NCBI GenBank assembly: GCA_028554795.2
Contig: CM068830.1
Span: forward strand, 108,823,214-108,887,213
DNA length: 64,000 nucleotides
Direction: 5' to 3'
From: Sinohyriopsis cumingii
Lineage: Eukaryota > Mollusca > Bivalvia > Unionida > Unionidae
In this document: positions 896 to 54,105 of the stretch, in pieces
Position numbering within the stretch: the first letter of the stretch is position 1
How the letters are laid out: each line of letters opens with the position of its first letter
Made by a program: the position numbers and the translations under genes
The notes under the pieces: model-generated
The model's database searches: none
The model's input: the letters and a program-made list of their open reading frames with translations, nothing else
Told to the model about the DNA's origin: nothing

Positions 896-1294
896 AATTC
901 CAGAGTTCTGTGGCTGTCCGAGGGGTTACTGGACGTCAGAGGCGTGTCTCCGCCCAAAATGGGGTTCTGGTTGTGGTTGTTGTTGGAGTGGTGACTGGCA
1001 CTGGCACTGGACACAAGGTTCCCGTGGTTCCCGTTCGAGGAGAATTTCAGGGAGGGATTGGGAAGCAGGTAACCGATGCAACTGCTCAATAAAATGGTCC
1101 ACAATTGTTTGTCTCCTTGTTGCAAACTCAAATTGGCGATGGCTGCCCCGATGGCAGAAAAAGACGATTTGCGTTTTAGGCACACGTTCTCCGCACCACA
1201 CCCACAAAAGTTGTTTTTGTAAATCTTGCAGAGAAGAACTAGGTCAAGGAGTGGTCGACGTAGCTGCGTCTGTGTGAAAGGGCATGATGGTCAT
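892..1294 (-). pseudogene. Small two-segment membrane protein, broken
   Basis: Alignment with copy 2 (43,622-43,968) defines a gene of about 130 codons that starts with ATG at 1294 (overlapping the integrase stop as ATGA) and ends at 892 (overlapping the penton start as ATGA). It is interrupted by an in-frame TGA at 1244-1246 and by a 23-base deletion near 1,143-1,150 relative to copy 2. Copy 2 shows a first hydrophobic segment where copy 1 has the deletion; a second (LWTILLSSCIGYLL) remains, followed by a Ser/Asn/His-rich tail. I do not recognise the family; a membrane-active or virion accessory protein is a guess. The whole interval 896-1282 has no ATG on the coding strand. Confidence 0.5.
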
Positions 1295-2400
1295 TTCTTT
1301 TTATAGTCGATGACTTGCGAAGCGTCGATCCAAGAATCAAAACTGGGTGGATATCCTTTCCAACGTACTTTGACTTCTTTGACACGTCGTTTGCCCACTT
1401 TACGGGTTATGCGTTCGAGAATGCTTTCGATGTCGTACACGTCGTCTTCTTTTTTGGTGACACGTTGTAACTCGGGTAAGTAAAGCGTTCCTTTGAGCAC
1501 TTCTCCGTTCATGTCTTCCAATTTATACACGGTAGGATGACGGCCATGCACTCGTCCAGTGACACGAAACAATTCGGTCGTCCAGTTAGGTAAGTAACCT
1601 TTGTCGAAAGTGCGTTTGGTTTTGCCAATGCGTACCCAATCTCCTACGGCCAACACTCCACTTTTCTTGGGGACAGCTCTCGTCGGGGACATACCAAACA
1701 GGCGCTCAAACACCAACACTTCGTTGTCGGGAGTCACTTCTTGCGGGGCACGTCCAATGCTTCGATGGTAAGATTGGTTGTACGCTTGCACCAGGTGCGG
1801 TAAGATGTCGATGCACTTCAGAGTGTGGTGATGCGTAAAATATTTCCACATGCGTTCTTTCAAAGTGCGTTGAAAACGTTCCACGATGCTGGATTTGGTT
1901 TCGGGATTCTCGGTGGTAAAAAAATGAATGTCACGTTTCTTTAATTCTTTTTGGAAAGCTTGGTTCAGAAATTCGGTGCCTTTGTCCGTTTGCCATCGAA
2001 GAGGGTGACGACCGCTTTGTTTCAACACCCGTTGTAGGGCTCGCACTAACTCGCTGCTCGATTTGGAAGTCAAGGGTACGACCCAGGCAAATTTGGAAAA
2101 GACGTCGATGACACAAAACAAATATTTGTAGCCGCGATTGTAGCTGGCCAAATGAGAGACATCGGCTAAATCGGCTTGCCATTGATGATCGATGCCTTCC
2201 ACTCGGGTGCGACTTCTGGCAAACTTGCGTCGAATGGGTTTGTGTAAAGTGTAGGTAGCTTGTTCTTGTAACCATCGTTGCACTTGAGGTAAACGGAGAC
2301 TTTTCAGTCGCATTTTGTCAGCACGATACAATTTTTGAACTCCTGCGTAACCTGCAGGATGCGAGGGATCGTAGTAAATGCTGGCTAACACCTTCTCCAT
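1291..2400 (-). CDS. DDE integrase with C-terminal chromodomain
   Basis: Retroviral-type (rve) integrase that would insert the element's DNA into the host genome. Counting from an upstream GTG at 2430, the catalytic triad is D87 (QADLAD), D149 (WQTDKG) and E184 (IVERF), with the canonical D-35-E spacing. An N-terminal region (AGYAGVQKLYRA...YTLHKPIRRKF) typical of Polinton integrases precedes it. A chromodomain lies near residues 331-374 (YDIESILE, WKGYPPSFDSW) and could guide the protein to methylated histone. I prefer ATG at 2400, which gives 369 aa and lies 12 bases after the stop of the preceding gene; the 2430 start is GTG. The stop overlaps the next gene's ATG. The frame is intact, unlike the copy 2 homologue. 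Confidence 0.93.
   Translation of the reverse strand: MEKVLASIYYDPSHPAGYAGVQKLYRADKMRLKSLRLPQVQRWLQEQATYTLHKPIRRKFARSRTRVEGIDHQWQADLADVSHLASYNRGYKYLFCVIDVFSKFAWVVPLTSKSSSELVRALQRVLKQSGRHPLRWQTDKGTEFLNQAFQKELKKRDIHFFTTENPETKSSIVERFQRTLKERMWKYFTHHHTLKCIDILPHLVQAYNQSYHRSIGRAPQEVTPDNEVLVFERLFGMSPTRAVPKKSGVLAVGDWVRIGKTKRTFDKGYLPNWTTELFRVTGRVHGRHPTVYKLEDMNGEVLKGTLYLPELQRVTKKEDDVYDIESILERITRKVGKRRVKEVKVRWKGYPPSFDSWIDASQVIDYKKK
1298..1305 (-). promoter_or_regulatory. TATA box inside the integrase 3' end
   Basis: TATAAAAA on the minus strand, 3 bases upstream of the membrane-protein ATG and identical in copy 2 (43,972-43,979). A transcript starting about 30 bases downstream would miss that ATG, and its first AUG would be that of the penton gene at 895. 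It overlaps lysine codons of the integrase C-terminus, so its conservation might be coding. Confidence 0.4.
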
Positions 2401-2414
2401 CTTTTTTTGGTGTG

Positions 2415-3125
2415 TTAATATGTCACCCACTCTTCTGTGATGCTACATTGGGTGGGACGAAAGGGTGGTTTAGAGACGGATTTACGTGTCCGATGGGCTA
2501 CGGGAGTAGAAGTCGAAGGTAGTGGTGGTAGAGGTGGCAATGGAATGGCTTTGGTCTTCTTTTCTTTTTTCACTTCTGGTTTCCCTTCTTTCTTTTTCAC
2601 TTCTGTCGAAGGAGGAGTGGACATCATCTTTTTAACCCAAGCTTTCATTTCTTCTCGTTGGGGTGTGGGGGACGGGGTCAACAAGGATGCTGCAATCATA
2701 CTAGAAATGGGAGCGGCTGACGGTGTTTGAAACACTTCTCGCATCTCTTCTTGCTCAGGTCTTCGTTGGGTAGCATCTCTGGTGACCCCTGGGGATGGTA
2801 GTAGTGGTGGTGGTGGTGGTGGTGGTAGTGATGATGGTGCTGGACTTTTCATCAAGGTCTTAAAATCTTTCAGAGTGGGTAGAGCTGTTTCGTCTAAAGC
2901 TTTCTGGTGAAAGAGTTGCAGTCGTTGCAAGAGTTGACCGTACTTTTGCGATTTCTCAGTTTCGGACAAATCTTGGCGATCCATCAAGGACTGCAATTCG
3001 TGTTGTAACTGGGACATCTCGCTCAAATTGGGATTGGGAGGTAAATGCGGGGTGCGTTGTTCTTGCCAACGATGGTATTCCATCCATCGTTTGTAAGGCA
3101 CTAAAGCCAGTTTTCGTCCTTCCAT
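2415..3125 (-). CDS. Proline-rich, coiled-coil protein of unknown function
   Basis: 236 codons from ATG at 3125. The N-terminus (RKLALVPYKRWMEY) resembles a start shared by unnamed Polinton proteins. Residues about 35-75 are polar and heptad-like (QLQHELQSLMDRQDLSETEK), consistent with a short coiled coil. A poly-proline run follows near residue 104, and the C-terminal third is Lys/Pro-rich. A virion-core or scaffold role is only a guess. A TATA-like GATAAAAAGG lies at 3,170-3,179 on the same strand. Copy 2 has a broken homologue at 45,087-45,780. Confidence 0.6.
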   Translation of the reverse strand: MEGRKLALVPYKRWMEYHRWQEQRTPHLPPNPNLSEMSQLQHELQSLMDRQDLSETEKSQKYGQLLQRLQLFHQKALDETALPTLKDFKTLMKSPAPSSLPPPPPPPLLPSPGVTRDATQRRPEQEEMREVFQTPSAAPISSMIAASLLTPSPTPQREEMKAWVKKMMSTPPSTEVKKKEGKPEVKKEKKTKAIPLPPLPPLPSTSTPVAHRTRKSVSKPPFRPTQCSITEEWVTY

Positions 3126-3174
3126 GGGGTTGTCAGGGGTCGATTCTGAGATCTTGGGACTTCCGAGGGCCTTT

Positions 3175-3580
3175 TTATCTTGCTCCCACCAGTCCTCCCA
3201 ACATGGTTCCCAAGACTCCTTTCAGTAAGGGACCTAACAAGAGGGGTAAAATGCCTCCACGTTGGACCAACATCTTCTTCTTTTGACGAATGGGAATTTT
3301 CTTTTGATCCATTTGGCGAAGAACGTGACGATGTTTGCCTAAGCATTGTTTCTGGTGTTTGGACAAAGGGATCATGCCTTTCAAGACGTTCAAACAACAT
3401 TCGCACACGGTATCGATGACCTCTTTGTAGGCTGATTGAATGAGTTTTTTTTCGTAGAGGTGGAGAAGCTTTGGACAGGACAGATAACATGTCCCAATGT
3501 TTGACTAAACGAGGAGGCAGTCCTTTCCTTTTCTTTCCTTGGGGTTGTTTAGAAGAGGGATGTTTTCTGGAGGGTGACAT
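3175..3580 (-). pseudogene. Small conserved basic Polinton protein, frameshifted at a homopolymer
   Basis: The gene starts with ATG at 3580 (MSPSRK) and should run through LLSKASPPLRK-like and CECCLNVLKG motifs to a basic stretch and a hydrophobic Gly/Leu tail (ILPLLLGPLLKGVLG). These motifs match a small protein repeatedly found in animal Polintons whose role is unknown; its basic, membrane-like tail suggests a virion component. Here the coding strand has eight A where copy 2 has seven (3,449-3,456), which shifts the frame; everything downstream stays open in the other frame to the stop at 3175. This is either a recent inactivation or a slippage site. Confidence 0.65.
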
Positions 3581-3622
3581 CTTCAGGAGCACCAAAACAC
3601 TGAAACCATACTTGGTCACACA

Positions 3623-3633
3623 CCTTTTTTATA
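3623..3633 (-). promoter_or_regulatory. TATA box for the small basic protein
   Basis: TATAAAAAAGG on the minus strand, about 43 bases upstream of ATG 3580. The equivalent TATA in copy 2 lies next to position 46,530 and there precedes an additional protamine-like gene. Confidence 0.5.
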
Positions 3634-4573
3634 CTGGAACGCGTCGCCACTGATTGTCTTTACGTCGTATCAACTTCAGGACAGGCATGACACGTCGTGC
3701 AGGGGTACGTAACGGACTAAATCGAGCCAGTTCTTGCTTGGACAAATCCAGTAAACTTTGTAACATGCCCGATCTCTCTTGGACTTTGATTTTGGGAGAA
3801 GGTACTTTGTGAGCAGCGGCCACTGCCGCTAAATTGGAGGGACCTGCCACTGGAGACGTTCTTGGTGTCATCAACGGAGATGTTCTTGGTGTGATCAACG
3901 TCTCCAAGTGCTCTTCAGTTCTTGGTGTCATCAACGGGGAAGTGAATGAACGTGAGGCTGCCGGAGACGCGGTCACCGCCGTGGCAGGTCGTGGTTTGCG
4001 AGTGTAAAGTTGCGTCCTGGCCGAAGTGCCTCTCTTGCGACTAGTTTTCTTTTGTGGGCTTTTCTTTTTCTGGGGACTTTTTCTCTGTTTCTCTTTCTGG
4101 GGGCTTCTTTTCTTTTTCCGAGGTGGTGTCTGGTAAGAGGAGGGTCCCGCCACTGAAGAAGTTCTCCTTGGGGACCTGGTCTTTTTCTTCTTCTTGGAGC
4201 TTCGTTTGACTTTTTTCTTGGGGAGAACTTTGGGGGCATTAGGATCCCATCTTAAGAGAGAGCGAATGATGACTCCTCCTAGAGTACCGCTCCCTCCAGG
4301 TTTGAAAATGATTTGTTTTTTGGTTTGAGTGTCGATGCGGGGATCGGCCAGTTGGGTCAAAGCGGCTTCGTTTCGATCAAAAAAGCGTTTGGTTTGATGA
4401 GGAATCTGAATGACTCCTTGGAGTAATTGACGTGCCGTCACCGTGAACCATCGTAAGACTTCTTTGAGACTAGCTTCTAAGACACGAGCTCGTGTTTGTG
4501 GATTTTTTTCTCGACTGATGCCATACAAGGCACGAATCAATTTGACGGGAAGATGCGACTTAAGGGACGTCAT
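3629..4573 (-). CDS. Long Lys/Arg/Ser/Pro-rich protein, candidate DNA-condensing core protein
   Basis: 314 codons from ATG at 4573. The first 125 residues look folded and include a glycine-rich site (IIFKPGGSGTLGG). The centre (about 125-190) is almost pure Lys/Arg/Ser/Pro, followed by repeats of the kind TSPLMTPRT, then a short ordered C-terminal stretch. The composition resembles viral core or condensing proteins such as adenovirus pVII, but no specific homology is claimed. Gly-Gly sites are what an adenain-like protease would cut, so proteolytic maturation is possible. Copy 2 keeps the C-terminal two thirds in two frames (46,569-47,433). Confidence 0.6.
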   Translation of the reverse strand: MTSLKSHLPVKLIRALYGISREKNPQTRARVLEASLKEVLRWFTVTARQLLQGVIQIPHQTKRFFDRNEAALTQLADPRIDTQTKKQIIFKPGGSGTLGGVIIRSLLRWDPNAPKVLPKKKVKRSSKKKKKTRSPRRTSSVAGPSSYQTPPRKKKRSPQKEKQRKSPQKKKSPQKKTSRKRGTSARTQLYTRKPRPATAVTASPAASRSFTSPLMTPRTEEHLETLITPRTSPLMTPRTSPVAGPSNLAAVAAAHKVPSPKIKVQERSGMLQSLLDLSKQELARFSPLRTPARRVMPVLKLIRRKDNQWRRVPV

Positions 4574-4614
4574 GTTTAAAATGTGTGTGAGACAGACGAA
4601 AAGGGTCTGAGGTT

Positions 4615-4620
4615 TTTATA
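4615..4620 (-). promoter_or_regulatory. TATA box for the long basic protein
   Basis: TATAAA on the minus strand, 42 bases upstream of ATG 4573 and downstream of the ATPase stop at 4642. Confidence 0.5.
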
Positions 4621-4641
4621 GATTTTTTCTGCGGAGTGAAA

Positions 4642-5370
4642 TTAAGTCGAGGACGGAGACGTGTACAGGACAGGCCCTCCGTCTTGGCCCCAGTGGTGAA
4701 ACAAGTGGGTACGAAATCGCAAATCCTCGGGGGTCGTAGGTTTCAAATCGACGAGTAAATAGGCGTGTGGAGTTTGAGTGGTATCGTCGTACGCCTGAGT
4801 CAGCCAAGGCGTCCCTAACTGTTTGGCTAAGACTTGCACTTGCGATTTATCTCGAGGGCTTTTAAACAAGACCACGTAATGCGCATTGAGACTGATGGTG
4901 CGATGGGCTTTACTTTGTTGAAACAAATTTTGGGTGATGTAAACGACACTGGCATTACGGTGATGCCCTTTGCGCGTGAACCACAGTTTAATTTCTTCTT
5001 CGTCTTCTCCTAGCATGTCGTCAAAAATGACCAAATGGGTTTGACAGGAGTCAGAGACGATGCCGTCGTCTTCTTTAGGAATGCCTTCCACAAACACGAT
5101 GGAATCGTCTTGACTTTCTCGCAAGAGGCTGTACGCCGATTGCCACTCTTTGTAACACCACACGATCCGCTGAGGTGGTCGATCGATCAAATGATGTTTA
5201 TGTTCGATCAAACGTCTGACGAATTCGGTTTTGCCTGAAGCGCTAGGTCCAGCAATGAGCATGTTAAAGGGATGACGAAGATACAAAGCCTCCCAACTGG
5301 CACTATCTAAGTGTTCGTCGATGACTTTGACAGTGGAGGAAGAGGGAGCAGAGACAGCAGAGGTAGCCAT
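4642..5370 (-). CDS. FtsK/HerA-type genome-packaging ATPase
   Basis: 242 codons from ATG at 5370. Walker A is GPSASGKT at residues 41-48, Walker B is LVIFDD at 113-118, and a sensor-like ITQN is at 145-148. This layout is that of the A32/FtsK-HerA packaging ATPases of Polintons, adintoviruses and other double-jelly-roll viruses, which pump DNA into the capsid. The size agrees with the family, and the frame is intact. A TATA box sits 47 bases upstream of the ATG. Copy 2 has lost the gene in a deletion whose junction is near 47,433. Confidence 0.9.
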   Translation of the reverse strand: MATSAVSAPSSSTVKVIDEHLDSASWEALYLRHPFNMLIAGPSASGKTEFVRRLIEHKHHLIDRPPQRIVWCYKEWQSAYSLLRESQDDSIVFVEGIPKEDDGIVSDSCQTHLVIFDDMLGEDEEEIKLWFTRKGHHRNASVVYITQNLFQQSKAHRTISLNAHYVVLFKSPRDKSQVQVLAKQLGTPWLTQAYDDTTQTPHAYLLVDLKPTTPEDLRFRTHLFHHWGQDGGPVLYTSPSST

Positions 5371-5416
5371 AGTGTTAGGAATGTCACTTGTGACACAAAA
5401 ACAAACAAGACGAGAG

Positions 5417-5424
5417 TTTATATA
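5417..5424 (-). promoter_or_regulatory. TATA box for the packaging ATPase
   Basis: TATATAAA on the minus strand, 47 bases upstream of the ATPase ATG. Confidence 0.55.
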
Positions 5425-5431
5425 CTTTTTT

Positions 5432-5722
5432 TCAGAACACGTTTACTGAATGTTTTAAACATGAATACAAAATACAAAAAATACATAAAAGCCAAAGGCT
5501 TAAGTACAAGGATAAACGGCACATGATAACCATCAACGTGGAATAAACAGAAGTGTCTGTACAACATGTTTTGCGTAATGTTCTGACCAGTTCTATAGGG
5601 GGTAAGGTCACACAAGTGTCCTCCCGAAAGGGTCTTTCAGGCCTGTCCACGACAGTCCTGTCCTGGGTGACTGGTTCTTCTGGTACTGTCACTAACACAG
5701 GTTGAAAAGTTGCAAGGCTCAC
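5432..5722 (-). CDS. Hypothetical 96-aa protein with C-terminal hydrophobic segment
   Basis: An open frame overlaps the 3' part of the Cys-motif gene in a different phase. It ends in a hydrophobic stretch (CRLSLYLSLWLLCIFCILYS) that could span a membrane. I do not recognise it. Copy 2 has no match because this segment is deleted there, so there is no conservation to support it and it may be a chance frame. Confidence 0.25.
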   Translation of the reverse strand: MSLATFQPVLVTVPEEPVTQDRTVVDRPERPFREDTCVTLPPIELVRTLRKTCCTDTSVYSTLMVIMCRLSLYLSLWLLCIFCILYSCLKHSVNVF

Positions 5723-5801
5723 AATCGCATTTCACTTCAGAAGCCCCATGTTTGAATTGTGCCTGTCTAAACTTGTTTTCTGTTTTTCTGAAAGTATTCA
5801 T
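5637..5801 (-). CDS. Small protein with a CDCxPC motif
   Basis: 54 codons from ATG at 5801 (MNTFRKTENKFRQAQF...CDCEPC). The first 30 residues match the start of a 78-aa frame in copy 2 (47,392-47,628) with mostly conservative changes; after CDCxPC the two diverge, and copy 1 appears shortened by a deletion. The clustered cysteines suggest metal binding or disulfides, but I do not recognise the family. A TATA box lies about 53 bases upstream in both copies, which supports a real gene. Confidence 0.5.
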   Translation of the reverse strand: MNTFRKTENKFRQAQFKHGASEVKCDCEPCNFSTCVSDSTRRTSHPGQDCRGQA

Positions 5802-5833
5802 CTTGTTCGCTCGGTCTTGGTAGTCACAATGAA

Positions 5834-8800
5834 CTATCGATCTTGCCTAGGGTTCCTTTTTATATACAGACCAATACCGACGTGTCCATACGGTAAGGTA
5901 AAATGATTGGGAAGTCGCACTCGCTTCTGGTACACGATTTGATAGACTTTTTCCAAGGGTCGACTGACGATGTGGTGAGTGGGTAAACGTACAATCTTGT
6001 TCGGTTGATAGGTGGTCACTTTAAAGTATTCATCCTCTCCGGATTGCAAGGCTTCTTTCAATACCCCAAAGTTCACCACACGACTGGTACGATAATTCAG
6101 AGTCAATCCTTTCACTTTACACGTCGTGTGCACTTCTCCTTGTGTGTCCCGGTATTCGTAACCGTACTTTTTAGGACCGCCACTGGCGAAACTTAGAATC
6201 TTGTCGTCGGGATGCTCGTCTGTCCAGGCTCCTAAACGGTCTCCTTCGATGTCAGGGTGCTGTTGACTCGGGTGATGGATGTAAATGCAACTGTTCGTGT
6301 CAAAGTACAGGACACGTTCCCCTAACAGTTCTAAAGCTTCGTACAATTTTAAGCGAGCATGAGCTGTCACGTAAGCCGCAATGATGACATTAACAAAGGG
6401 GTCGGCTTCTACAAAGTCCAGATCTTCTTCGTAATTGACCAAGATCAAATCCTCGCGAACGACGTCCACGTGTTTCACGTATTTGGTTTTGTCGTGAATC
6501 ATCTGGAAGTAGCGGGAAGGTTCTGTCAAATATTCCGTCTTGGGTAAACACGGTCGTTGTGCCATATTACCCCACAAGCAATTTAACATCACTTTGATCG
6601 CCTGCGTTTGTTTTTCTCGATGTGGTCTAAAGAGATTCCTTCTTGTTCATAGCATTTCTCTTTGAATGTCTTTTCGTCTTCGGGAGTGTGACACCAGGAA
6701 GGATAGTCGCTGGCTTCTTGTTTCAGTTTCAAAAAGGCATCCACGTAGAATGCGAAAATGCCTTTCTGACTGGGGTCACCCTTATGGTATTGTTGTGTCT
6801 TGGGGAAAGTGGCAAATTTCGTACACTTCTAACAGTTGGTATCCCATGTCCAGAGATTTGAACAATTCTACGCTGACCCACGTCCCCGTCAAGGCCCGTT
6901 CTTCCTTGGTGTGCTGACAAGGTTGGTCTTGGTTGCACGTCTCGGCACAAGTACGGCACAAACGAAACATCAGTTTGCCTTGGCAATGGTGAGGTAAGAC
7001 GGGATGGTGCAAGTCCATGGGAGGCAAAACTTTACACTTGATCAAGCCTTCGTATTGTCGAATGTTTTTCAGGTCGACGTGTTCCGTCAGCAATTGTGGG
7101 TGCCCTGCAGGAAAGTGACAATATTTGCACACGTAGGGATACAGCGAGCACACGTCAAAGTTTTTGATTTCTTCTCCTTTTTCTTTGTCGGCTTGGTACA
7201 GCAAACAGGTGGCATTGGTCCTTCCTCCGTACAAACTATCCCTCGGGTTCAGGGGGTCCATGAACTGGTAACTTTCAAGGAGGCGTTTAAATTCGGGATC
7301 GGTTTTCAAACGGTGATCGTATTCGTGTTCCCACATTTCCACCACTTGGTATCCTTCCTGTTCCAACTTTAGGCGTCGCTGACAAGTGTCCTGGTACAAG
7401 TCTTCCATGGTTCGTTGTAAAAACTGATTTTTAGTGCCACGATCAGGGTAACAGACGGGACATCCGTGAAATAAGCAACCGTTAAACTCGTACACGATCT
7501 TGGGGTTTTCTAAGTCCCAGCCATCGACCGAATACGTTCCTATGGTCTTTTCACCCCCTCCGTTGCGGGCATGCTGAATCCACTTGTCTTCCTTGTCGCA
7601 CAAGTAATGTAACCAACGTAGGCTTTGACAGAGTATTGACGTTTGACAAAGTTAGTCGTTTGAGGACTGATGACAGCCACGGTGTTTTCAGGCATGAATC
7701 GTTGTCGATACACTAAGGAACACGCTTTGGCAATGGTGCAAGCTTCTTTCAAAGGATCGACCCCTCCGTGTTCCATGAACAGTTCTCGAAATTTTCCACA
7801 GCAACGTCGTAAAATGTCCACGTCGGAACGAAAATACTTTAACATTTCTTCCTGAAAGTCGAAAGGGTCCGAGGCGTGAGCCTGGTACCAAGCGTAGAAA
7901 GCTTCTCGTTGTTCGGTACGCATGTTGTCGGGGTCGTAATAGTGAGCCTCAGGCAAATGGGGTAGAACGGCGTGTTGATTGGCTTCCGTATTGAAAAAGT
8001 GTGGAAAGTACCCTTTAGCCATTTCTGTCATTCCAAACGTTTTAGGCATTCGACTCAAAGGCATGGCCAAATAGCTATTCGAATCTTTAAACTGCACTTG
8101 CCCCACTTGCATAAAAATGATTTTGGCTCCGTTCAAAGTGACTTTAGGACGTTCGGTGCCTTGTTCCGTATAGTATCTCAAAAGAAACTGTCCATCGTAT
8201 CCGGAGAAATTGTGAGCCACTGTGGCATGACGATGACAATCTCCGTAACGTTCGATGTCCTCTTGGCTCCACGTCTTGTCGATGGGGTGTAAGACCCATT
8301 GGGCAAAATCGGCTAACGTGTTCGGTCCTCGAAAGATTTTTTCACGCCCTCCGGGAATCTTACTGCAGTGAGGGCAATGACTGAAGATAGGTTCTTGAAT
8401 GCACTTCTCGCACGCTCGATGAGCCACGCAGAAATTAGGAATGTGAATGCCAGTCTCTTGCATGCATTCAAAATTGAAAAAGATGAAATTGCCTTTCTTC
8501 TTGTGACCGTCCTCTTTCTCTGGTGGGGGTTGGTATTTTTACACGTAGCATTCGTGTTCCAAGTCCACGATGTGGTGACAAATGTGACACATTTTTTTCC
8601 TGAACGTACGTGTGCCTTGGTATTATTGGTACGTAGGCCTTGTCCACACGTAGGGCACAATCTCAGGAGTTGACAAGCACATTTCTGCTGTGAACCTTGC
8701 GTCTTCAGATGTTGTTGGTAACAGGCAGGGCTGACAAACGTGCCCAGACAAGCAGGACAATGTACTCTTTCTTGTCCTTCGCTCAGACAGGGTGGAGAGG

Positions 8801-9890
8801 CCAAACATCCTGAGCATTTCAATCCACAATGTTTGTGTTGTTCTCGATTTTTATGGCCATAGTCACATTTCTCACAATAATAAACATATCCCAGGAATCC
8901 AGTGATACTGGTAATGGTATCGAAATGGTCATCGTGATGATAAAGGTGAATGTATTTTCCATCCTTAAAGTCTTTCCCTCGAAACAACAGAGGTCCACGC
9001 ATTTCTTGAGGGTGCACTTTCAAGGTATAGAATGGAGCTAAGACATCTTCCAATTTTTGCATCTCAGGAATGCCACAGGGTGTGTCTTTGGACAGTCCGG
9101 CTTGTTGTAACAGGAGTTCTGCTTCATTTCGTTGTTTGGCTCGGTCCGATTTTCGAATAGTCTCCCAGGCTCTTTTCCATTCTACCGTGTCGTTCTTTTT
9201 GGCATTGGTTCGTCCCACCACGATGGCTCGGGCTAAACATATCTGGTCTTGAGAATTGTGAATTCGGACGAGACTTGTTTTGGTGTTGCGAAGGTCGTTC
9301 ACCAATAAGACCTTTTTGCGTCCAGTCCCTTGAGGAGGAGAGACGTGGGTCATTTTCAGTGTGGCTTTACCATCGGTGATGTCAAACTGATCATTAGATT
9401 GTTGTACGTGTTGAATCTTGTCCATGACTTTGGAAGGGGTTAGTTCTGCGGGTCTGCTAAACTCGATCCAAACAGGGGATTTCAAGCTGTCGTGATCTAT
9501 GGATAGTGTCAAGCGATCGTCTTCTTTGGGTTGAGATTGTCGCTTGAGTGTGGTGAGCAAAGAATCCCACATCTCGGTGATAAACCCTTCTGCTTTCTCC
9601 AACGGTACGTCGGACTTGAAATCTTTAAACTTCACTGTGTAGGTGTAAGCCGTGGTTCTAAATTTTCTAGAGGAGCGCTTTTCCGTCTCTCGAATGGAAT
9701 AGTACTTTTCAGGGTTGACTAAGGGTGGTGAACTTTGTTTAGAGGGTTCGGATTCTGGTTCACTCATGTCCTCTTCAAAATCACTGGCATGAATTTGTGC
9801 CACGACTTCAGCTCTGGTACGAGGCGATAGATCACGTTTCTGCCTCTTACTTTCTTCTTCTTTCTTCTCGAATGAATAGGATCGTTCCAT
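5834..9890 (-). pseudogene. polB: Protein-primed family B DNA polymerase, multiply frameshifted
   Basis: This would replicate the element from its termini with a protein primer. The N-terminal ~480 residues hold a Cys/His-rich zinc-finger-like region, as in other animal Polinton polymerases. A DEDD-type exonuclease follows, then palm motifs: HGCP and GGRTNA (TPR1-type region), motif A DVCSLYP near 7,150, motif B NCLWG near 6,580 and motif C near 6,295. Frameshifts relative to copy 2 lie near 8,591 (poly-A run), 7,620 (one base lost), 6,802 (one base gained) and 6,604 (8-base deletion). Two catalytic Asp are also Asn: exonuclease motif I is NFE (codon 8,473-8,475) and motif C is DTN (codon 6,293-6,295). 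Start is ATG 9890, 49 bases below a TATA box. Confidence 0.92.
5855..5866 (-). promoter_or_regulatory. TATA box for the Cys-motif gene
   Basis: TATATAAAAAGG on the minus strand, inside the 3' end of polB. Copy 2 has a matching TATAAAAAGG near 47,680, upstream of its homologous ORF. Confidence 0.5.
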
Positions 9891-10024
9891 CTTGAGTGCA
9901 AAACGTCAAATGACTCAAGTTTAGACACCACAGACTAATTTATAGTCATGGCAAACCAGCGTATATAAAAGGGTGTGTGTCTTGTCCTATCACTATTCAT
10001 TTCACTCTCAAACCGAGCACAACG
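9891..10024. promoter_or_regulatory. Divergent promoter of polB and the zinc-knuckle gene
   Basis: Two TATA boxes face away from each other: TATAAA on the minus strand at 9,939-9,944 for polB, and TATAAA on the plus strand at 9,963-9,968 for the zinc-knuckle gene. A sequence TGACTCA (AP-1-like, read on the complement TGAGTCA) lies at 9,911-9,917. The same layout is kept in copy 2 (52,149-52,281). Confidence 0.6.
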
Positions 10025-10531
10025 ATGGAAGAGACTACCCAGATGGAACGTTTCATCAGAGCTTTGCGAGGGGTCATTAGAAAATTCTCTTCAGACCAAC
10101 CGACGGACTACTCTCCTTCCTTTCGAGATAAAAGTCAAGATACTTGCTATATCTGTCAGAAGAAAGGGCATTGGTCTTCAGAGTGTCCAGACCGTCAAAA
10201 AAAAAAAAAAACAGGGGCTAGAAAAGACAAAAGTCAAGATACCTGTTATTATTGTCAAGAAAAAGGACATTGGTCTCCAGATTGCCCAAAAAAGAAACAA
10301 GAGGAGTCAGAAAAAAAGAGGGATTCTTCAGAAGAAGAGAGAGATTCTTCAGAGGAAGAAAGCAGCCAGGTGAAGAAAAAGAAACAGGAGAAGAAAAGAA
10401 GAATGGAAGAAAGTGAGGAGGAAGAGGAGGAAAAGACTGTGACGGTGAAGAAATTAAAAAAAAAAGAGAGAGTAAAAAAAGAAACAGAAGAAGTGAATGT
10501 AATTTACAAAGTGCTCTGTTGTAAATTGTGA
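10025..10531 (+). CDS. Two-CCHC zinc-knuckle protein with charged tail
   Basis: 168 codons from ATG at 10025, about 57 bases below a TATA box. Two retroviral-nucleocapsid-type knuckles (C-x2-C-x4-H-x4-C) use C41, C44, H49, C54 and C74, C77, H82, C87 (CYICQKKGHWSSEC; CYYCQEKGHWSPDC). The tail alternates acidic Glu/Ser and Lys blocks. CCHC knuckles bind single-stranded RNA or DNA, so a nucleic-acid-binding or annealing role during replication is inferred. I do not know this gene in other Polintons. A run of 12 A (about 10,199-10,210) lies between the knuckles. Copy 2 has an early stop in this gene. No histone-type end is seen, unlike the next two genes. Confidence 0.8.
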   Translation: MEETTQMERFIRALRGVIRKFSSDQPTDYSPSFRDKSQDTCYICQKKGHWSSECPDRQKKKKTGARKDKSQDTCYYCQEKGHWSPDCPKKKQEESEKKRDSSEEERDSSEEESSQVKKKKQEKKRRMEESEEEEEEKTVTVKKLKKKERVKKETEEVNVIYKVLCCKL

Positions 10532-10698
10532 ATTGGATTGTAACTATGGAGAAAAGAATACATTAATTATATAAGGTAAGAGTCTTTGAGTTTTGATTTT
10601 AAATAAGAAGCTACACTCACGCACTCATACACAGACACGTACTATAAGGGTAAAATGTTTTTTTTGTTGATTTTTGAGTTATTGGCAAATTGAAAGTG

Positions 10699-10745
10699 TA
10701 TCTCTTTTCGAGAGACGTGCGTGGCCCTGAAAAGGGCCTTTTTTT
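10699..10745 (-). terminator. Histone-type 3' stem-loop and downstream element (minus-strand gene)
   Basis: On the minus strand, 22 bases after the stop of the 131-aa gene, stand an A-rich flank, stem GGCCCT, loop TTTC, stem AGGGCC (core 10,723-10,738) and ACGCA. A purine-rich CTCGAAAAGAGATA follows 8-10 bases later. The order and spacing are those of replication-dependent histone mRNA 3' ends (SLBP-bound stem-loop, then the U7-snRNA-paired histone downstream element). Copy 2 keeps it with a G-U wobble in the stem. Confidence 0.8.
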
Positions 10746-10760
10746 GGTGTAGGGGTGAGT

Positions 10761-11156
10761 TTAAGCAATCAACTTTAACTGCCTTAAGATTTTGCCACGG
10801 CCAAGGCCTACTTCTGATGATGATGATTGATGACCCTCTTGTTTCTTTGCCGCTACTTCTTCTTCTTGTTTTTTTTTTCTTACCTCTTCTTGTTGCTGTT
10901 GCTGTTGCTGTAGGAGAAAAGCTTGTTCCGCTTCCTTTTGTCGTTGCATAAATTTCTCCAATTCTTCATTCTGTCTCTGTCTAAAATTCCCCACTTGCGG
11001 TAATGAAGAATGAGACGAAGGTTCCGGAACAAATTCTTGCGAGGTAAGAAAATCCACAAAATCCCAATGTACCTCTTCTGAAAGTAAGTCCGGGTTCCCT
11101 TTCGCGGTCTCCACTGCTGGTGCACCCCAGTGAATCGTTTTCTGAGTTTCCGTCAT
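10761..11156 (-). CDS. 131-aa Gln/Glu-rich coiled-coil protein
   Basis: ATG at 11156, 47 bases downstream of a TATATAGA box. The N-terminus (GAPAVETA...DLLSEEVHWDFVDFL) is acidic and conserved in copy 2. The middle is a Gln/Glu/Lys-rich heptad stretch with a poly-Gln run, predicted to be helical. The end (EVGLGRGK...LRQLKLI) is also conserved. Copy 2 has about 55 more residues before that end, so copy 1 has an internal deletion. The function is unknown. It is the minus-strand partner of a divergent pair, and both members use a histone-type 3' end. Confidence 0.65.
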   Translation of the reverse strand: MTETQKTIHWGAPAVETAKGNPDLLSEEVHWDFVDFLTSQEFVPEPSSHSSLPQVGNFRQRQNEELEKFMQRQKEAEQAFLLQQQQQQQEEVRKKKQEEEVAAKKQEGHQSSSSEVGLGRGKILRQLKLIA

Positions 11157-11375
11157 GTTGAATCACTGTCGCATAGATTGACTGCACACAGGCGCTAGCG
11201 AATCTATATAGACCACGTGACGTCACAGACTGCTCTCTTCGGATTGGATGCGGGCTGACTGAATTTTGTCACGCGTGTTTGGATTGGTCAATGACCTCAA
11301 TCCGTTTCAATCCTTCCTCTCCCTTTAAATAAACTCAGTTCAGCGCAATCACTCACCTGGTCTCGGAGCCTCAAG
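11157..11375. promoter_or_regulatory. Divergent promoter with CRE, E-box, inverted CCAAT and TATA boxes
   Basis: Minus-strand TATATAGA is at 11,203-11,210. Overlapping CACGTG (11,214-11,219) and TGACGTCA (CRE, 11,218-11,225) follow. ACGCGT is at 11,271-11,276, ATTGG (inverted CCAAT) at 11,243 and 11,283, and a plus-strand TTTAAATAAA at 11,324-11,333. Copy 2 keeps the CRE, ACGCGT, the second ATTGG and the minus TATA. The arrangement resembles histone H2A-H2B divergent promoters. Confidence 0.6.
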
Positions 11376-11606
11376 ATGTGGACCGACGTTCAATCTTCCA
11401 CCCTTGTGTCAACAATGATGTTCAGGACGGACATACCCATGTATGTCCGGTCCAAGTGGACTGTTGTCGATAGGACAGATAGTAGTCTATGGATGAGAAG
11501 AGTTTACATAGAAAGACAAGGATGCCTCAAGAGGGTACTTGCGTATGGACCTGCAGTTAGAAGGAGTTTAAGAAGAAGAAGATGTGACAGATGCCGTCTA
11601 TGTTAA
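11376..11606 (+). CDS. 76-aa small basic protein, intact in both copies
   Basis: Starts MWTDVQSSTLVSTMMFR and ends in an Arg-rich stretch with three cysteines (RRRRCDRCRLC). Copy 2 encodes a protein of exactly 76 residues with compensating small indels and mostly conservative changes, so the frame has been preserved while nearly all other shared genes decayed. No domain is recognised; the basic Cys-containing tail could bind nucleic acid. The stop (11,604-11,606) is followed 18 bases later by a histone-type stem-loop. Confidence 0.7.
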   Translation: MWTDVQSSTLVSTMMFRTDIPMYVRSKWTVVDRTDSSLWMRRVYIERQGCLKRVLAYGPAVRRSLRRRRCDRCRLC

Positions 11607-11619
11607 TATTAACATACAA

Positions 11620-11666
11620 CCAAAGGCCCTTTTCAGGGCCACCCACATTTCTCGAAAAGAGATTGA
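11620..11666 (+). terminator. Histone-type 3' stem-loop and downstream element (plus-strand gene)
   Basis: CCAAAG flank, stem GGCCCT, loop TTTC, stem AGGGCC (core 11,625-11,640) and ACCCA, then nine bases later CTCGAAAAGAGATTGA. This is a near-perfect match to the metazoan histone mRNA 3' processing signal, including the ACCCA cleavage flank and a U7-type purine-rich element. It is an inverted duplicate of 10,699-10,745. Confidence 0.85.
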
Positions 11667-11716
11667 CTTTCCATTGCCTACCCCTTTTTAAAAAAAAAAA
11701 TTGTTTTTAAAAAAAT

Positions 11717-12100
11717 CCCATGTTCAATTCCCTTTGTCCCTATACAGGCCCAAACTCTATTCCCCATGCTCAATTCCCCGTGTCCCTAGACAAGCCCAAA
11801 CTCTATTCCCCATGTTCAATTCCCATTGTCCCTAGAGTGACCCAGCAATATCTCCCATGTTAAATTTCCATTGTTCGAATGCCTTTGTCCCTAGAATGTC
11901 CTTAGCATGGATATTTCCTTTCTCCAATGTTAAATTCCCTTGTCCCCAGAGTGACCCAGGGTATTTTACCCATGTTAAATTTCCATTGTCCCTAGAGTGA
12001 CCCAGGGTGGTTAATGTTAAATTTACATAGTCCCCAGAGTGACCCAAGGGTGTTTTTAATGGTAATTCCCATTGTCCCTAGGGTGACCCCTTTCACTACT
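11717..12100 (+). repeat. Subterminal tandem repeats and right terminus of copy 1
   Basis: About eight degenerate units of roughly 45 bases share the core CCCATGTTAAATTCCC followed by TTGTCCCTAGAGTGACCC. Copy 2 has related units (54,180-54,404). Both arrays end in TTCACTACT, which I take as the element's end; its complement would start AGTAGTGAA, in line with the AG...CT ends of Polintons. No gene is seen here. Confidence 0.6.
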
Positions 12101-43621: not shown

Positions 43622-43968
43622 ATGTTGTTGTTATTGGAGTGGTGACTGACACTGTCACCGGATACAAGGTTCCCGTTGTTCCCGTTCGAGGTGAATTTCA
43701 GGAAGGGATTGGGAAGCAGGTAACGGATGCAACTGCTTAATAAAATGGTCCACAATTGTTTGTCTCCTTATTGCAAACTCAAATTGGCAATGGCGGCACC
43801 GATGACACAATACACCACGACGATTTGGCAGAAAAAGACGATTTGTGTTTTAGGCACACGTTCTCCACACCACACCCACAAGGGTTGTTTCTCTAAACCT
43901 TGCAGAGAAGAACTGGGTGAAGGAGTGGTCGCAGATGCTGAATCTGTGTGAAAGAGCATGATGGTCAC
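43622..43968 (-). pseudogene. Small membrane protein, copy 2, 3' truncated
   Basis: Homologue of 892-1294. The 23 bases missing from copy 1 are present and encode most of a hydrophobic segment (QIVVVYCVIGAAIANLSL). The ATG corresponding to 1294 is GTG here, an in-frame TAA follows the first hydrophobic segment, and the 3' end is cut by the element's truncation. The interval has no ATG downstream of 43,957, as in copy 1. Confidence 0.5.
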
Positions 43969-45075
43969 TTCTTTTTATAGTCGATGACTTGCGAAGCGTC
44001 GATCCAAGAATCAAAACTGGGTGGATATCCTTTCCAACGTACTTTGACTTCTTTGGCACGTCGTTTACCTACTTTACGGGTTCTGCGTTCGAGAATGCTT
44101 TCGATGTCGTACACGTCGTCTTCTTTTTTGGTGACATGTTGTAACTCGGGCAAATAAAACGTTCCTTTTAACACTTCTCCGTTCATGTCTTCCAATTTAT
44201 AGACGACAGGATGACGGCCATGCACTCGTTCAGTGACACGAAACAATTTGGTGGTCCAGTTAGGTAAGTAACCTTTGTCAAAAGTGCGTTTGGTTTAGCC
44301 AATGCGCAGCCAATCTCCTACGGCCAACACTTCACTTTTCTTGGGGACAGTCCTCGTCGAAGACGTACCAAACAGGCGATCAGACACCAGCACTTCGTTA
44401 TCGGGAGTCGTCTCTAGTGAGGCACGTCCTATGCTTCGATGGTAAGATTGGTTGTACATTTGCACCAGGTGCGGTAAGATGTCGATGTACTTCAGAGTGT
44501 GGTGATGCGTAAAATATTTCCACATGCGTTCTTTCAAAGTGCGTTGAAAACGTTCCACGATGCTAGCTTTGGTTTCAGAATTCTCTGTGGTGAAAAAAAT
44601 GAATGTCACGTTTCTTTAATTATTTTTGGAAAGCTTGGTTCAGAAATTCGGTGCCTTTGTCCGTTTGCCATCGAAGAGGGTGACGACCAGTTTCTTTCAA
44701 TACCCGTTGCAGGGCTTGCGCTAACTCGTGGCTCGATTTGGAAGTCAAGGGCACGACCCAGACAAATTTGGAAAAGACGTCGATGACACAAAACAAATAT
44801 TTGTAGCCACAATTGTAGGTGGCCAAATGAGAGACATCGGCTAAATCGGCTTGCCATTGATGAACAATGCCTTCCACTCGGGTGCGACTTCTGGAAAACT
44901 TGCGTCGAATGGGTTTGTGTAAGGTGTAAGTAGCTTGTTCTTGTAACCATCGTTGCACTTGAGGTAAACGGAGACTTTTCAGTCGAGTTTTGGCAGCACG
45001 ATACAATTTTTGAACTCCTGCGTAACCTGCAGCATGGGATGGATCGTAGTAAATGACGGCTAACACCTTCTACAT
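43965..45075 (-). pseudogene. Integrase with chromodomain, copy 2, broken
   Basis: Homologue of 1291-2400. The ATG at 45,073-45,075 is followed directly by TAG (GAG in copy 1). A frameshift lies near 44,610, in the core between the second Asp and the Glu, and a TAA lies near 44,295 (lysine in copy 1). The Asp, Asp and Glu positions and the chromodomain remain readable in pieces. Confidence 0.88.
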
Positions 45076-45086
45076 TTTTTTGTTTC

Positions 45087-45780
45087 TTAATAAGGCACCC
45101 ACTCTTCGAGGATGCTACTTTGGGCGGGACGAAAGGGTGGTTTGGAAACGGATTTATGTGTCCGATGGGCTACGTGAGTAGAAATCGAAGGAAGTGGTGG
45201 AGGTGGTAATGGAATGACTTTGGTCTTCTTTTCTTTTTTCACTTCTGGTTTCCCTTCTTTCTTTTTCACTTCTTTCGAAGGAGGAGTGGACATCATCTTT
45301 TTAACCCAAGCTTTGATTTCTTCTCGTTGGGATGTGGGGGACGGGGTCATCAAGAAAACTGCAAATCTTACTAGACATGGGAGCTGATGACGGTGTTTGA
45401 AACACTTCTCGTATCTCTTCTTCCTCAGGTCTTCGTGGGGTAGCATCTCTGGTGACCCCTGGGGATGGTAGTAGTGGTGGTGGTAGTGTGGTGGATGGAC
45501 TTTACATCAAGGTCATACAATCTTTCAGAGTGGGAAGAGCTGTTTCGTCTAAAGCTTTCTGGTGAAAGAGTTGCAGTCGTTGCAAGAGTTGACCGTACGT
45601 TTGCGATTTTTCTGTTTCGGACAAATCTTGGCGATCCATCAAGGACTGCAATTCGTGTTGTAGCTGGGACATCTCTCTCAAATTGGGATTGGGAGGTAAA
45701 TGCGGGGTGCATTGTTCTTGCCAACGATGGTATCCCATCCATCGTTTGTAAGGCACTAAATCTAGTTTTCGTCCTTCCAT
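45087..45780 (-). pseudogene. Proline-rich coiled-coil protein, copy 2, broken
   Basis: Homologue of 2415-3125, starting at ATG 45,780 (RKLDLVPYKRWMGY). A stop interrupts near 45,502, the poly-Pro run is shorter, and the frame shifts near 45,440 and 45,360 before the Lys-rich C-terminus ends at 45,087. Confidence 0.6.
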
Positions 45781-45828
45781 GGGATGTCAGGGGTCGATTC
45801 TGAGATCTTGGGACTCCAGAGGGCCTTT

Positions 45829-46211
45829 TTATCTTGCTCCCACCAGTCCTCCCAACACGGTTCCCAAGACTCCTTTCAGTAATGGGCCTAACAAGAGGGG
45901 TAAAATTCCTCCATGTTGGACCAACATCTTCTTCTTTTGTCTGATGGGAATTTTCTTTTGAACCATTTGGCGAAGAAGCATTGTTTCTGGTGATTAGACA
46001 AAGGGATGGTGCCTTTCAAAACGTTCAAACAACATTCGCACACGGTATCGATGACCTCTTTGGAGGCTGTTTGAATGAGTTTTTTTCGCAGGGGCGGAGA
46101 AGCTTTGGACAGGAGAGATAACATGTCCCCAGGTTTGACTAAAGGTGGAGGCAGTCCTTTCCTTTTCTTTCCTTGTGGTTCAGAAGAGGAATGTTTTCTG
46201 GAGGGTGACAT
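45829..46211 (-). pseudogene. Small conserved basic protein, copy 2, broken differently
   Basis: Starts at ATG 46,211 (MSPSRKHSSS) and stays in frame through LLSKASPPLRKK and CECCLNVLKG. It is then disrupted by a 19-base deletion near 45,979 relative to copy 1. The A-run that is expanded in copy 1 has the in-frame length here. Confidence 0.65.
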
Positions 46212-46249
46212 TTTTGCTTGTGGGTTCCGGGACATTCAACAAACATACA

Positions 46250-46549
46250 CTAACGTCGATGACTTAACACGCTCCCTTTCATCTTTTCTTGGACTATCGC
46301 TTTGTCATAAAGGTGACAATGTTTTCTTCCAAAATCGCAAGGAATCCTCTTTTTCTTTGAACGACTGTATCTTTTCTTAGGGTAACGTCGATGCTTGGGT
46401 AAGCGCTTTGTCGGATGACGAGTCTGGCTTAGTCTCTTTCTTTTTGGACGATAGTGACGGTGTTCACTTCTTTGAGGTGAAATCTTTTGGAAGTTCACTG
46501 ATACCCCTACTTGGTCGCAGGCCTTTTTTATACTGGAACGCGTCGCCAC
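46250..46549 (-). CDS. Protamine-like Arg/Lys/Tyr-rich protein, copy 2 only
   Basis: Up to 99 codons; the first codon is GTG and no ATG is present, so the true start has been lost or mutated. The centre is strongly basic with Tyr, His and Pro (RHYRPKRKRLSQTRHP, RRYPKKRYSRSKKKR), like viral DNA-condensing peptides (adenovirus mu, protamines). A TATA box near 46,530 is shared with copy 1, where this gene is deleted and the TATA sits next to the small basic protein instead. Role in genome packing is inferred from composition only. Confidence 0.45.
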   Translation of the reverse strand: MATRSSIKKACDQVGVSVNFQKISPQRSEHRHYRPKRKRLSQTRHPTKRLPKHRRYPKKRYSRSKKKRIPCDFGRKHCHLYDKAIVQEKMKGSVLSHRR

Positions 46550-46568
46550 TGATTGTATTTACGTCGTA

Positions 46569-47489
46569 TCAACTTGACGACAGGTATGACACGTCGTGCA
46601 GGGGTACGTAGCGGACTAATCGAGCCAGTTCTTGCTTGGACAAATCCAGTAAACTCTGTAACATACCAGATCTTTCTTGAACTTTGATTCTGAGAGAAGG
46701 TACTTTGTGAGCAGCGGCCACTGCCACTAAATTTGAGGGTTGTGCCACTGGAGAAGTTCTTGGGGTCATCAACGGAGAAGTTCTTGGTGTGATCAACGTC
46801 TCCAAGTACTTCTTAGTTCTTGGTGTCATCAACGGAGAAGTGGATGAACCTGATGCTTCCGGAGACGCGGTCATCGCCGTTGCAGGTCATGGTTTGCGAG
46901 TGTAAGGTTGCGTCCTGGCCGAAGTTCCTCTCTTGCGACTAGGTTTCTGTGGGCTTTTCTTTTTCTGGGGACTTTTTCTCTGATTCTTTTTCTGAGGGCT
47001 TTTCTTTTTCCGGGGTGGTGACCGGAAAGAGGAGGGTCCCGCCACTGGAGAAGTTCTTGGAGACACGGGTCTCCTTGGGGACCTGGTCTTGCCACCGTGG
47101 CTCTTTTTTTTCTTCTTGGAGCTTCGTTGGACTTTTTTCTTGGGGAGAACTTTGGGAGCATTAGGATCCGATCTTAAGAGGGAGCGAATGATAGCACCTC
47201 CTAGAGTACCGCTCCCTCCAGGTTTCAAAATGATTTGTTTGTTGGTCTTTGTGTCGATGCGGGGATCGGCCAGTTGGGTCAAAGCGACTTTGTTTCGATC
47301 AAAAAAGCGTTTGGTTTGATGAGGAATCTGAATGATCCCATGCAGTAATTGACGTGCTGTCACCGTGAACCATCGTAAGACTTGTTTGAGACTAGCTTCT
47401 AAGACACGAGCCCGTATTTGTGGATTTTTCAGGTTTGAAACGCACAGCATCACTTTCCATGATAGGGGTAGTGACACTAAAGTTCCCAT
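46569..47489 (-). pseudogene. Long basic core-like protein, copy 2, broken
   Basis: Homologue of 3629-4573. Its first ~25 codons are replaced by unrelated sequence at a deletion junction near 47,433 (the deletion also removed the ATPase). The Lys/Ser/Pro-rich centre is in frame to 46,887, then a shift near 46,880 moves the MTPRT repeats and C-terminus to another frame ending at 46,569. Confidence 0.6.
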
Positions 47490-47628
47490 GATGCTTTACG
47501 GCATCGCTAAGGTCACAGCGTACAGCATTGTTCCCATCACAAGGCTTGCAATCGCATTCCACTTCAGAGGCCCTAGACTTGAATTGTGCCTGTCTGAACT
47601 TGTTTTGTGTTTCTCTGAAAGTATTCAT
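47392..47628 (-). CDS. Small protein with CDCxPC motif, copy 2
   Basis: 78 codons from ATG 47,628. Residues 1-30 match the 54-aa ORF of copy 1 (MNTFRETQNKFRQAQ...CDCKPC), and further Cys residues follow. The last ~14 codons read across the deletion junction into the basic-protein gene, so the natural C-terminus is unknown. A TATA box lies about 53 bases upstream. Confidence 0.45.
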   Translation of the reverse strand: MNTFRETQNKFRQAQFKSRASEVECDCKPCDGNNAVRCDLSDAVKHHGNFSVTTPIMESDAVRFKPEKSTNTGSCLRS

Positions 47629-47698
47629 CTTGTTCGCATGGTCTTGGTAGTCACAATGAACTATTGATCTTGCCTGGTGTTCCTTTTTATACTAGTCG

Positions 47699-48135: not shown

Positions 48136-48172
48136 CCTTCTGGTGAGTAGCTATCCACTTACAACCAATGTT

Positions 48173-52850: not shown

Positions 52851-52851
<1 letters not shown>

Positions 52852-52889: not shown

Positions 52890-52892
<3 letters not shown>

Positions 52893-52962: not shown

Positions 52963-53008
52963 TATCTCTTTTCGAGAGACACGTGTGGCCCTGAAAAGGA
53001 CCTTTGGG
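52963..53008 (-). terminator. Histone-type 3' stem-loop, minus-strand gene, copy 2
   Basis: Minus-strand stem GGTCCT, loop TTTC, stem AGGGCC (core 52,987-53,002). The single change from copy 1 makes a G-U pair and keeps the stem. CTCTCGAAAAGAGATAG follows as the downstream element. It lies about 18 bases after the stop of the 131-aa gene homologue. Confidence 0.8.
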
Positions 53009-53020
53009 GTATTTGTTGGT

Positions 53021-53806: not shown

Positions 53807-54037
53807 ATGTGGACCGACGTGGAGTCAACTCTTGTCTCTTCCATGATGTTTAGAATGGACTTACCCATGTACTTCCGATCCACCTGGACTATTGTTAGAA
53901 TGAGAGAAACCTGTGCGTGGAAAAGAAGAATCCAAGTGGAGAGGCAAGAATGTTTAAAGAGGGTTCTCATTTATGGCCCTGAAGTAAGACAGAGTTTGAG
54001 GACAAGAAGAAGACTAATACGATGCCCTCTATGTTAA
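53807..54037 (+). CDS. 76-aa small basic protein, copy 2, intact
   Basis: ATG 53,807 to stop 54,035-54,037. It begins MWTDVESTLVSSMMFRMDLP and ends in a basic stretch with two Cys (IRCPLC). Same length as the copy 1 product, with conservative substitutions and offsetting indels. It is the only gene complete in both copies. Function unknown. Confidence 0.7.
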   Translation: MWTDVESTLVSSMMFRMDLPMYFRSTWTIVRMRETCAWKRRIQVERQECLKRVLIYGPEVRQSLRTRRRLIRCPLC

Positions 54038-54060: not shown

Positions 54061-54105
54061 CCAAAGGCCCTTTTCAGGGCCACTCCCATATCTCGAAAAG
54101 ATATT
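54061..54105 (+). terminator. Histone-type 3' stem-loop, plus-strand gene, copy 2
   Basis: CCAAA flank, GGCCCT-TTTC-AGGGCC (core 54,066-54,081), ACTCCCA and then TCTCGAAAAGATATT. It starts 28 bases after the stop codon. Stem and loop are identical to copy 1. Confidence 0.85.

Follow-up and report, generated by a model that had tools for sequence, protein, structure and literature searches.

A Polinton in the genome of Sinohyriopsis cumingii very likely mimics the histone genes of its host, with processing of the SLBP/U7 type and expression linked to S phase as the predicted outcome for a set of its small genes. This reading is based on the observed presence, orientation and spacing of histone-type 3′ signals, on a paired change within their stem, on their identity with the signals of the host and on their copy number. 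The DNA under study is a stretch of 64,000 nucleotides (the window), and the genome-wide searches covered the 2.9-Gb host assembly. A preliminary description had interpreted a divergent pair of genes in the window as viral genes with mRNA ends of the histone type. That interpretation is supported, and the finding has become wider: five genes carry the signal instead of two, the signal is written in the host's own letters, and a histone promoter box is present at the other end of the element.

A Polinton with a divergent gene pair at its outer end

Two copies of the element lie inside the window, at 972-11697 (copy 1) and 43623-54135 (copy 2). Their aligned pieces are 78-90% identical, and copy 2 is more broken than copy 1. 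The element was identified as a Polinton, a self-synthesising transposon of virus-like character, from the genes of copy 1, namely those for an integrase with rve core and chromodomain, a packaging ATPase of the A32 type, a DNA polymerase B of viral type (PolB) and a CCHC protein; the combination of retroviral-like integrase, PolB and A32-type ATPase by which Polintons/Mavericks are defined is thus found in the window element. These genes of copy 1 are as follows.

1291..2400, minus strand: Polinton integrase, rve core and chromodomain (Pfam PF00665, 1.8e-14; PF00385, 1.6e-06)
4642..5370, minus strand: A32-type packaging ATPase (Pfam PF04665, 2.4e-06; 407 relatives at E <= 0.001)
5834..9890, minus strand: viral-type DNA polymerase B, split among several frames (PF03175, 8.1e-14, on the 7540-8463 frame)
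10025..10531, plus strand: CCHC zinc-knuckle protein (PF00098, 7e-14; no stem-loop or AATAAA within 300 nt)

The PolB frames 5834-6589 and 8313-9890 had no Pfam match and were assigned from their position. The outer end of copy 1 consists of a divergent pair of small genes, minusQ on the minus strand and plusR on the plus strand. The features of this pair and of its counterpart in copy 2 are listed below.

10703..10709, minus strand: GAAAAGA purine element of minusQ, copy 1 (pattern match and comparison with host spacing)
10723..10738, minus strand: stem-loop of minusQ, copy 1, GGCCCTTTTCAGGGCC, 22 nt past the stop (Histone3, 33.0 bits over 10699-10743)
10761..11156, minus strand: minusQ, minus gene of the pair, copy 1 (open reading frame, 131 aa)
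11157..11375, no strand: promoter region that both genes of the pair share, lacking the histone box of the element's other end
11376..11606, plus strand: plusR, plus gene of the pair, copy 1 (open reading frame, 76 aa, arginine-rich C-terminal end)
11625..11640, plus strand: stem-loop of plusR, copy 1, GGCCCTTTTCAGGGCC, 18 nt past the stop (Histone3, 41.8 bits over 11620-11665)
11654..11660, plus strand: GAAAAGA purine element of plusR, copy 1, resembling a histone downstream element and a U7 target, 13 nt past the stem
52967..52973, minus strand: GAAAAGA element of the minus gene, copy 2 (pattern match)
52987..53002, minus strand: stem-loop of the minus gene, copy 2, GGTCCTTTTCAGGGCC, with one G-U pair (Histone3, 26.4 bits over 52962-53007)
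53807..54037, plus strand: plus gene, copy 2 (open reading frame, 76 aa)
54066..54081, plus strand: stem-loop of the plus gene, copy 2, GGCCCTTTTCAGGGCC, 28 nt past the stop (Histone3, 37.2 bits over 54061-54105)
54095..54101, plus strand: GAAAAGA element of the plus gene, copy 2 (pattern match)

The stem-loops and purine elements were thus located in both copies where the preliminary description had placed them. The degenerate stem GGYYCTTTTNAGRRCC matches four times in the 64 kb, each time at one of the four gene ends, against a mean of 0.01 in 100 shuffles. The purine pattern CTCGAAAAGAGATNNNCTTTC, with <= 3 mismatches allowed, also matches four times (10692-10712 and 52956-52976 on the minus strand, 11651-11671 and 54092-54112 on the plus strand), against a mean of 0.06 in shuffles. 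Chance palindromes were rejected on the basis of these shuffles and of the reversed controls in the genome, which gave 0 matches. The spacing of 18-28 bases between stop and stem that had been described was confirmed, with 18 (plus) and 22 (minus) in copy 1 and 28 (plus) in copy 2, and the stem change of copy 2 does keep the pairing, as one G-U pair in 52987-53002.

Membership in the Rfam family Histone3 (RF00032, gathering cut-off of 34 bits) had been proposed as a check. A cmscan of the whole window against 4,227 families at curated cut-offs returned only two hits, both to Histone3 and both at plus-strand ends (41.8 and 37.2 bits), and these two ends are members of the family. The two minus-strand ends, seen at a lowered threshold, score below the cut-off (33.0 and 26.4 bits), and each is the best match of its strand in a 2.6-kb piece. 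The description of a viral gene pair holds in so far as the ends are present in both copies, but the minus gene of copy 2 has only four codons open from its start and no long frame, and minusQ in copy 1 is a shortened form (131 aa, compared with 184-188 aa in 15 of 30 copies read at other loci). The plusR protein matches no Pfam family. A Pfam histone match was not found for the plus and minus genes of the window, RR3 of locus L004, RR1, RR2 or another minus-gene copy, and the possibility that the element genes are degenerate histones was rejected for this reason. By eye only, the acidic-aromatic stretch WDFVDFL of the minusQ protein (L003:2019-2591; window 10761-11156) resembles a transactivation domain; a charged stretch follows it.

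The element carries the host's version of the signal

Host histone genes form tandem arrays with a repeat length of about 8.3 kb (662 first-look candidates, from which 150 matches were scored). One repeat unit contains H3, H4, H2B, H2A and H1, and each of these genes has a stem-loop of the GGCCC kind (GGTCC...GGACC in H1). The stems read GGCCCTTTT[TCA]AGGGCC in H3, H4, H2B and H2A and GGTCCTTTTCAGGACC in H1, and the ends score 35.0-39.4 bits with Histone3. The distance from the stem to GAAAAG is 13 nt in H3, H4 and H2B and 14 nt in H2A and H1. Measured to AAAAG, it is 14 nt in H3, H4 and H2B and 15 nt in H2A and H1; of 11 element ends included in the comparison, 10 have the shorter distance and one has the longer. 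Since kind of stem, spacing and purine element are those of the host histones, the signal of the element is the version that the host itself uses, and the order and spacing of histone mRNA ends that had been claimed for the pair stand up to comparison with the host genes. A CAATTTTGCC-like or ATTTGCC motif was seen past the purine element both in the host locus L044 (H2A and H2B) and at element 3′ ends.

The other end of the element

The alignment of the two window copies to each other stops just past the integrase (at 972 and 43623), and genes of a capsid half were not seen there; both copies therefore seem to be without a capsid half. In two other loci, L048 and L049, a capsid half lies next to an integrase that is 79% and 95% identical to that of the window. 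A family of right ends was considered as a separate element, and this was rejected because the flanks in L048 and L049 share the integrase and its neighbouring genes; the family represents the opposite end of this Polinton. The gene order at that end is integrase, then capsid-type genes, a protease and the small genes RR1, RR2 and RR3. The protease of these flanks has a weak adenain match (Pfam E 0.02). The AlphaFold2 model of the L048 capsid protein (pLDDT 86.8) matches the capsid proteins of iridovirus, Sputnik, PBCV-1, mavirus and adomavirus. As judged from the modelled fold, members of the family encode a double-jelly-roll major capsid protein, which is found in L048/L049 and not in the window copies. 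Of 491 relatives of the capsid protein, 120 were listed, and those with a name belong to Mercenaria, Crassostrea, Ostrea, Saccostrea and Littorina, which points to a probable molluscan host; Polinton capsid proteins in other mollusc genomes are 43-52% identical. Scans of viral contigs and genome contigs with the ATPase and the capsid protein confirmed no relatives. In L046/L047, frames that look by eye like those of a retrotransposon (reverse transcriptase and endonuclease) flank one copy of the element end.

RR1, RR2 and RR3 each have a stem-loop and a purine element. Their stems are mostly AGCCC...GGGCT in RR1 and RR2, where both sides of the first base pair have changed together, from G-C to A-U. 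The exceptions are RR1 of L048, which is altered, RR2 of L004, with one pair broken, and RR2 of L001, in which the first pair is broken. A survey of the 300 nt past 17 gene ends (nine in window copy 1 and eight in other loci) located a stem-loop after five (minusQ, plusR, RR1, RR2 and RR3) and none after the other 12, replication and capsid genes included. In the sense of the gene, the distances from stop to stem are 18, 21, 22, 25 and 29 nt (one example for each of the five genes). Both genes that had been described as having histone-type ends therefore do so, but they are not the whole set, as three more are found at the other end.

The AATAAA hexamer follows two of the 17 gene ends, the protease of L048 (at 114 nt) and RR3 of L004 (at 123 nt, past the stem-loop), and ATTAAA is located 209 nt after RR1 of L049. 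Within the 10.7 kb of 972-11697, AATAAA occurs 0 times on the minus strand, which codes for the replication genes, and four times on the plus strand. In the capsid half, the coding strand has two such hexamers in L048 and a single one in L049, located in either locus close to the end and past the protease. This distribution fits one long array of genes that would be read together and a separate class of terminal genes.

The location of the stem-loops bears on whether they could be features of the DNA. The terminal region was seen to begin at the stem-loop when window positions 11607-12100 were compared with the right ends of L004 and L005. Besides the stem-loop and the purine element, the two ends of the element have in common a TTGCC motif and subterminal repeats, among them CCCATGTTCAA, and their best pieces agree at 69% of 454 columns and at 74% of 272. 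This shared region has the stem-loops of plusR and RR3 at its inner border, so these two are not independent, and their position speaks for hairpins that are terminal-repeat features serving as replication, packaging or integration signals. The other three of the five, those of minusQ, RR1 and RR2, lie inside the element. Moreover, the stems at the five ends are oriented like their genes, start 18-29 nt past the stop and are followed by the purine element at the host spacing. The same explanation could take the hairpins to be chance palindromes that resemble the histone stem, but 0.01 are expected per window and the reversed pattern is found 0 times in the genome. Hairpins of either origin are, in our judgement, quite improbable, and the histone-type signal remains the preferred reading.

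A histone promoter box upstream of RR1, RR2 and RR3

The three genes at the other end also have an upstream box like GATGTTTTCC(A/T)TCACGTCCGCGC. In two copies, the box of RR3 is identical to that of host H2B over 24/24 bp, and near-identical boxes are present in RR1 of L049 (23/24) and RR2 of L005 (21/22). The box of RR1 of L048 fits H1 best (24/26), RR2 matches a stretch of H4 over 18/18, and H2A has a reversed near copy of the box. When five RR promoters were compared with the five histone promoters, none of 300 random 300-bp window stretches scored as high, and none of seven control promoters of other element genes stood out against the histone promoters. That the promoter of the divergent pair had been copied from a histone promoter was also considered and rejected, because a score as high was reached by 39 of 300 random stretches of host DNA; the 64-kb window does not contain the 23-bp box even when <= 3 mismatches are allowed. 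Genome-wide, the 23-bp box has 30,300 exact copies and its reversed control 0. The first 100 boxes listed are often grouped about 0.7-0.9 kb apart, as expected of RR1-RR2-RR3. The presence of histone signals on five genes and of the promoter element on three suggests that the expression of these genes is timed to host DNA replication.

Abundance, covariation and conservation of the signal

The pattern of stem plus purine element has 17,527 exact copies in the host genome, compared with 0 for the reversed control. Histone repeats explain only a small share of the copies of box and signal, since they gave 662 first-look candidates. A genome-wide Histone3 search scored 75 matches of 589,472 first-look candidates. 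The 28 that were read are all element genes (13 plusR, 6 minusQ and 9 RR3) and include no histone; their purine element is GAAAAG in 21 and AAAAAG in 6 and is lost in that of L002, so that AAAAG is present in 27/28. The plusR protein search scored 150 matches of 18,076 first-look candidates, and 146 of the 150 are free of internal stops. The presence of the same ends in homologous copies, which had been proposed as a check, was borne out by the 30 best plusR protein matches (the window's own copy included), with a perfect stem in 26/30 and the AAAAGAGA element in 30/30. A strict pattern for the minus-gene stem was found in 20 of 30 copies read for that gene; eight had no strict match, and in two the gene start was not located.

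Covariation was analyzed over 23 stem-loops (18 from the element and five from the host), leaving out RR1 of L048 and the L002 and L007 ends. At the first stem position, 16 have a G-C pair, 6 have an A-U pair and 1 has no pair, and 98.6% of all cells are paired, compared with <= 65.2% for slid structures. None of 500 shuffles reached the observed covariation score, share of paired cells or count of cells with a change on both sides, although these figures are not probabilities because the sequences are related and were selected with patterns or with the Histone3 model, a model that favours paired stems. Two measures were unremarkable: the number of pairs with changes on both sides was reached by 36/500 shuffles and the number of pair types by 462/500.

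Conservation was compared among 30 young plusR copies. The stem and purine core has 6/690 variable cells and the flanks have 54/1,710, a difference that is not significant when taken site by site (p = 0.13 against the flanks and p = 0.63 against third codon positions). This lack of significant extra conservation would agree with a relic, that is, captured ends of a host histone gene that were copied along with the element and whose signals are now unused; the copies are young and abundant, and hitch-hiking would keep such a signal. A relic would not account so readily for the paired G-C to A-U change that distinguishes most RR1 and RR2 stems from the rest, for a signal that is present on five genes and absent from the 12 others examined, or for the histone promoter box that RR1-RR3 also have upstream. 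The plusR protein is, in addition, constrained, as variation is lower at codon positions 1 and 2 (0.0013) than at position 3 (0.011) over the 30 copies. We therefore regard a relic as unlikely and retain the reading of the signals as functional mimicry.

Proposed mechanism and relation to known systems

According to the mechanism that we propose, five small accessory genes at the two ends of this very abundant element bear the 3′ signals of host histone genes (a 6-bp stem, a 4-nt loop and GAAAAG(A) 13-14 nt later), which the host stem-loop binding protein (SLBP) and U7 snRNP most likely recognise. The transcripts would be cut between the stem-loop and the purine element, leaving them with no poly(A) tail, and would be made and be stable mainly in S phase. 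The three small genes opposite the window's pair additionally possess the host histone promoter box, and the replication and capsid genes examined are without histone-type ends. Processing, the absence of poly(A), S-phase timing and a benefit to the element are what we infer from the arrangement of the signals.

With somewhat less assurance, we favour a broader reading in which the element probably mimics whole histone genes, with box and 3′ end on one side and the 3′ end alone on the other. It would then separate an S-phase, poly(A)-free class of small terminal accessory genes from a long one-strand array with the genes for replication and capsid. As a virus-like element that uses the histone mRNA pathway for part of its expression it would be the first known, and it would have spread box and terminator by the tens of thousands.

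Roles of SLBP extend beyond cleavage. The stem-loop might accordingly act through this protein in stability, export or translation with no 3′ cleavage, or the copies might be decoys for SLBP and U7, for which 17,527 exact signals in the genome would be a fitting number. Such roles would not need a purine element at the host spacing, and we give this explanation little likelihood compared with processing of the histone type. In the search for the machinery, the best Rfam U7 match in the host had 29.3 bits (E 0.27), which is below the cut-off, and by eye it is without the expected complement. A loose U7 pattern matched 305 places compared with 544 for the reversed control, and none of the five inspected was convincing. 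The SLBP domain family search gave no match, and its controls gave none either.

The ends resemble those of metazoan replication-dependent histone mRNAs (RF00032) in the 6-bp stem, the UUUC-type loop, the purine element 13-14 nt on and the near-host letters. They differ in that the genes of the element are non-histone, small and terminal and belong to a capsid-encoding mobile element. The likeness to Polintons/Mavericks, with adintoviruses, consists of the rve-chromodomain integrase, the A32-type ATPase, PolB, the weak adenain-type protease and the double-jelly-roll capsid protein, whereas the histone-type mRNA ends and promoters set this element apart. That no Polinton had been described with histone-style processing was also our finding, as the literature searched, in which subscription papers are thinly covered, contained no earlier report of histone-type mRNA ends or promoters in these elements. 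Histone-encoding viruses (bracovirus H4, giant-virus histones) are comparable as virus-like elements that exploit the histone system, but there the protein was taken, while in this element the regulatory signals alone were taken. The available portion of a review of histone-encoding viruses (PMC9145170) has no mention of stem-loop, polyadenyl or SLBP. Viral contigs of IMG/VR were considered as a further source of such ends and rejected; five contigs match GGCYCTTTTNAGRGCCAC, and 0/5 have an Rfam match at E <= 0.01.

According to PMC12775136, the mRNAs of replication-dependent histones form the sole class of poly(A)-less animal mRNAs. If the proposed mechanism is correct, a capsid-encoding mobile element with non-histone mRNAs that lack poly(A) would break this rule, and such transcripts would escape poly(A)-selected RNA-seq. 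It would also explain how a Polinton could time its accessory genes to host DNA replication, and it leads one to ask how the host manages when SLBP/U7 target sites are increased by thousands and histone promoter boxes by tens of thousands. As a hint only, protein P0002 from another data set extends past the usual stop with residues that could be encoded by the stem-loop and purine element.
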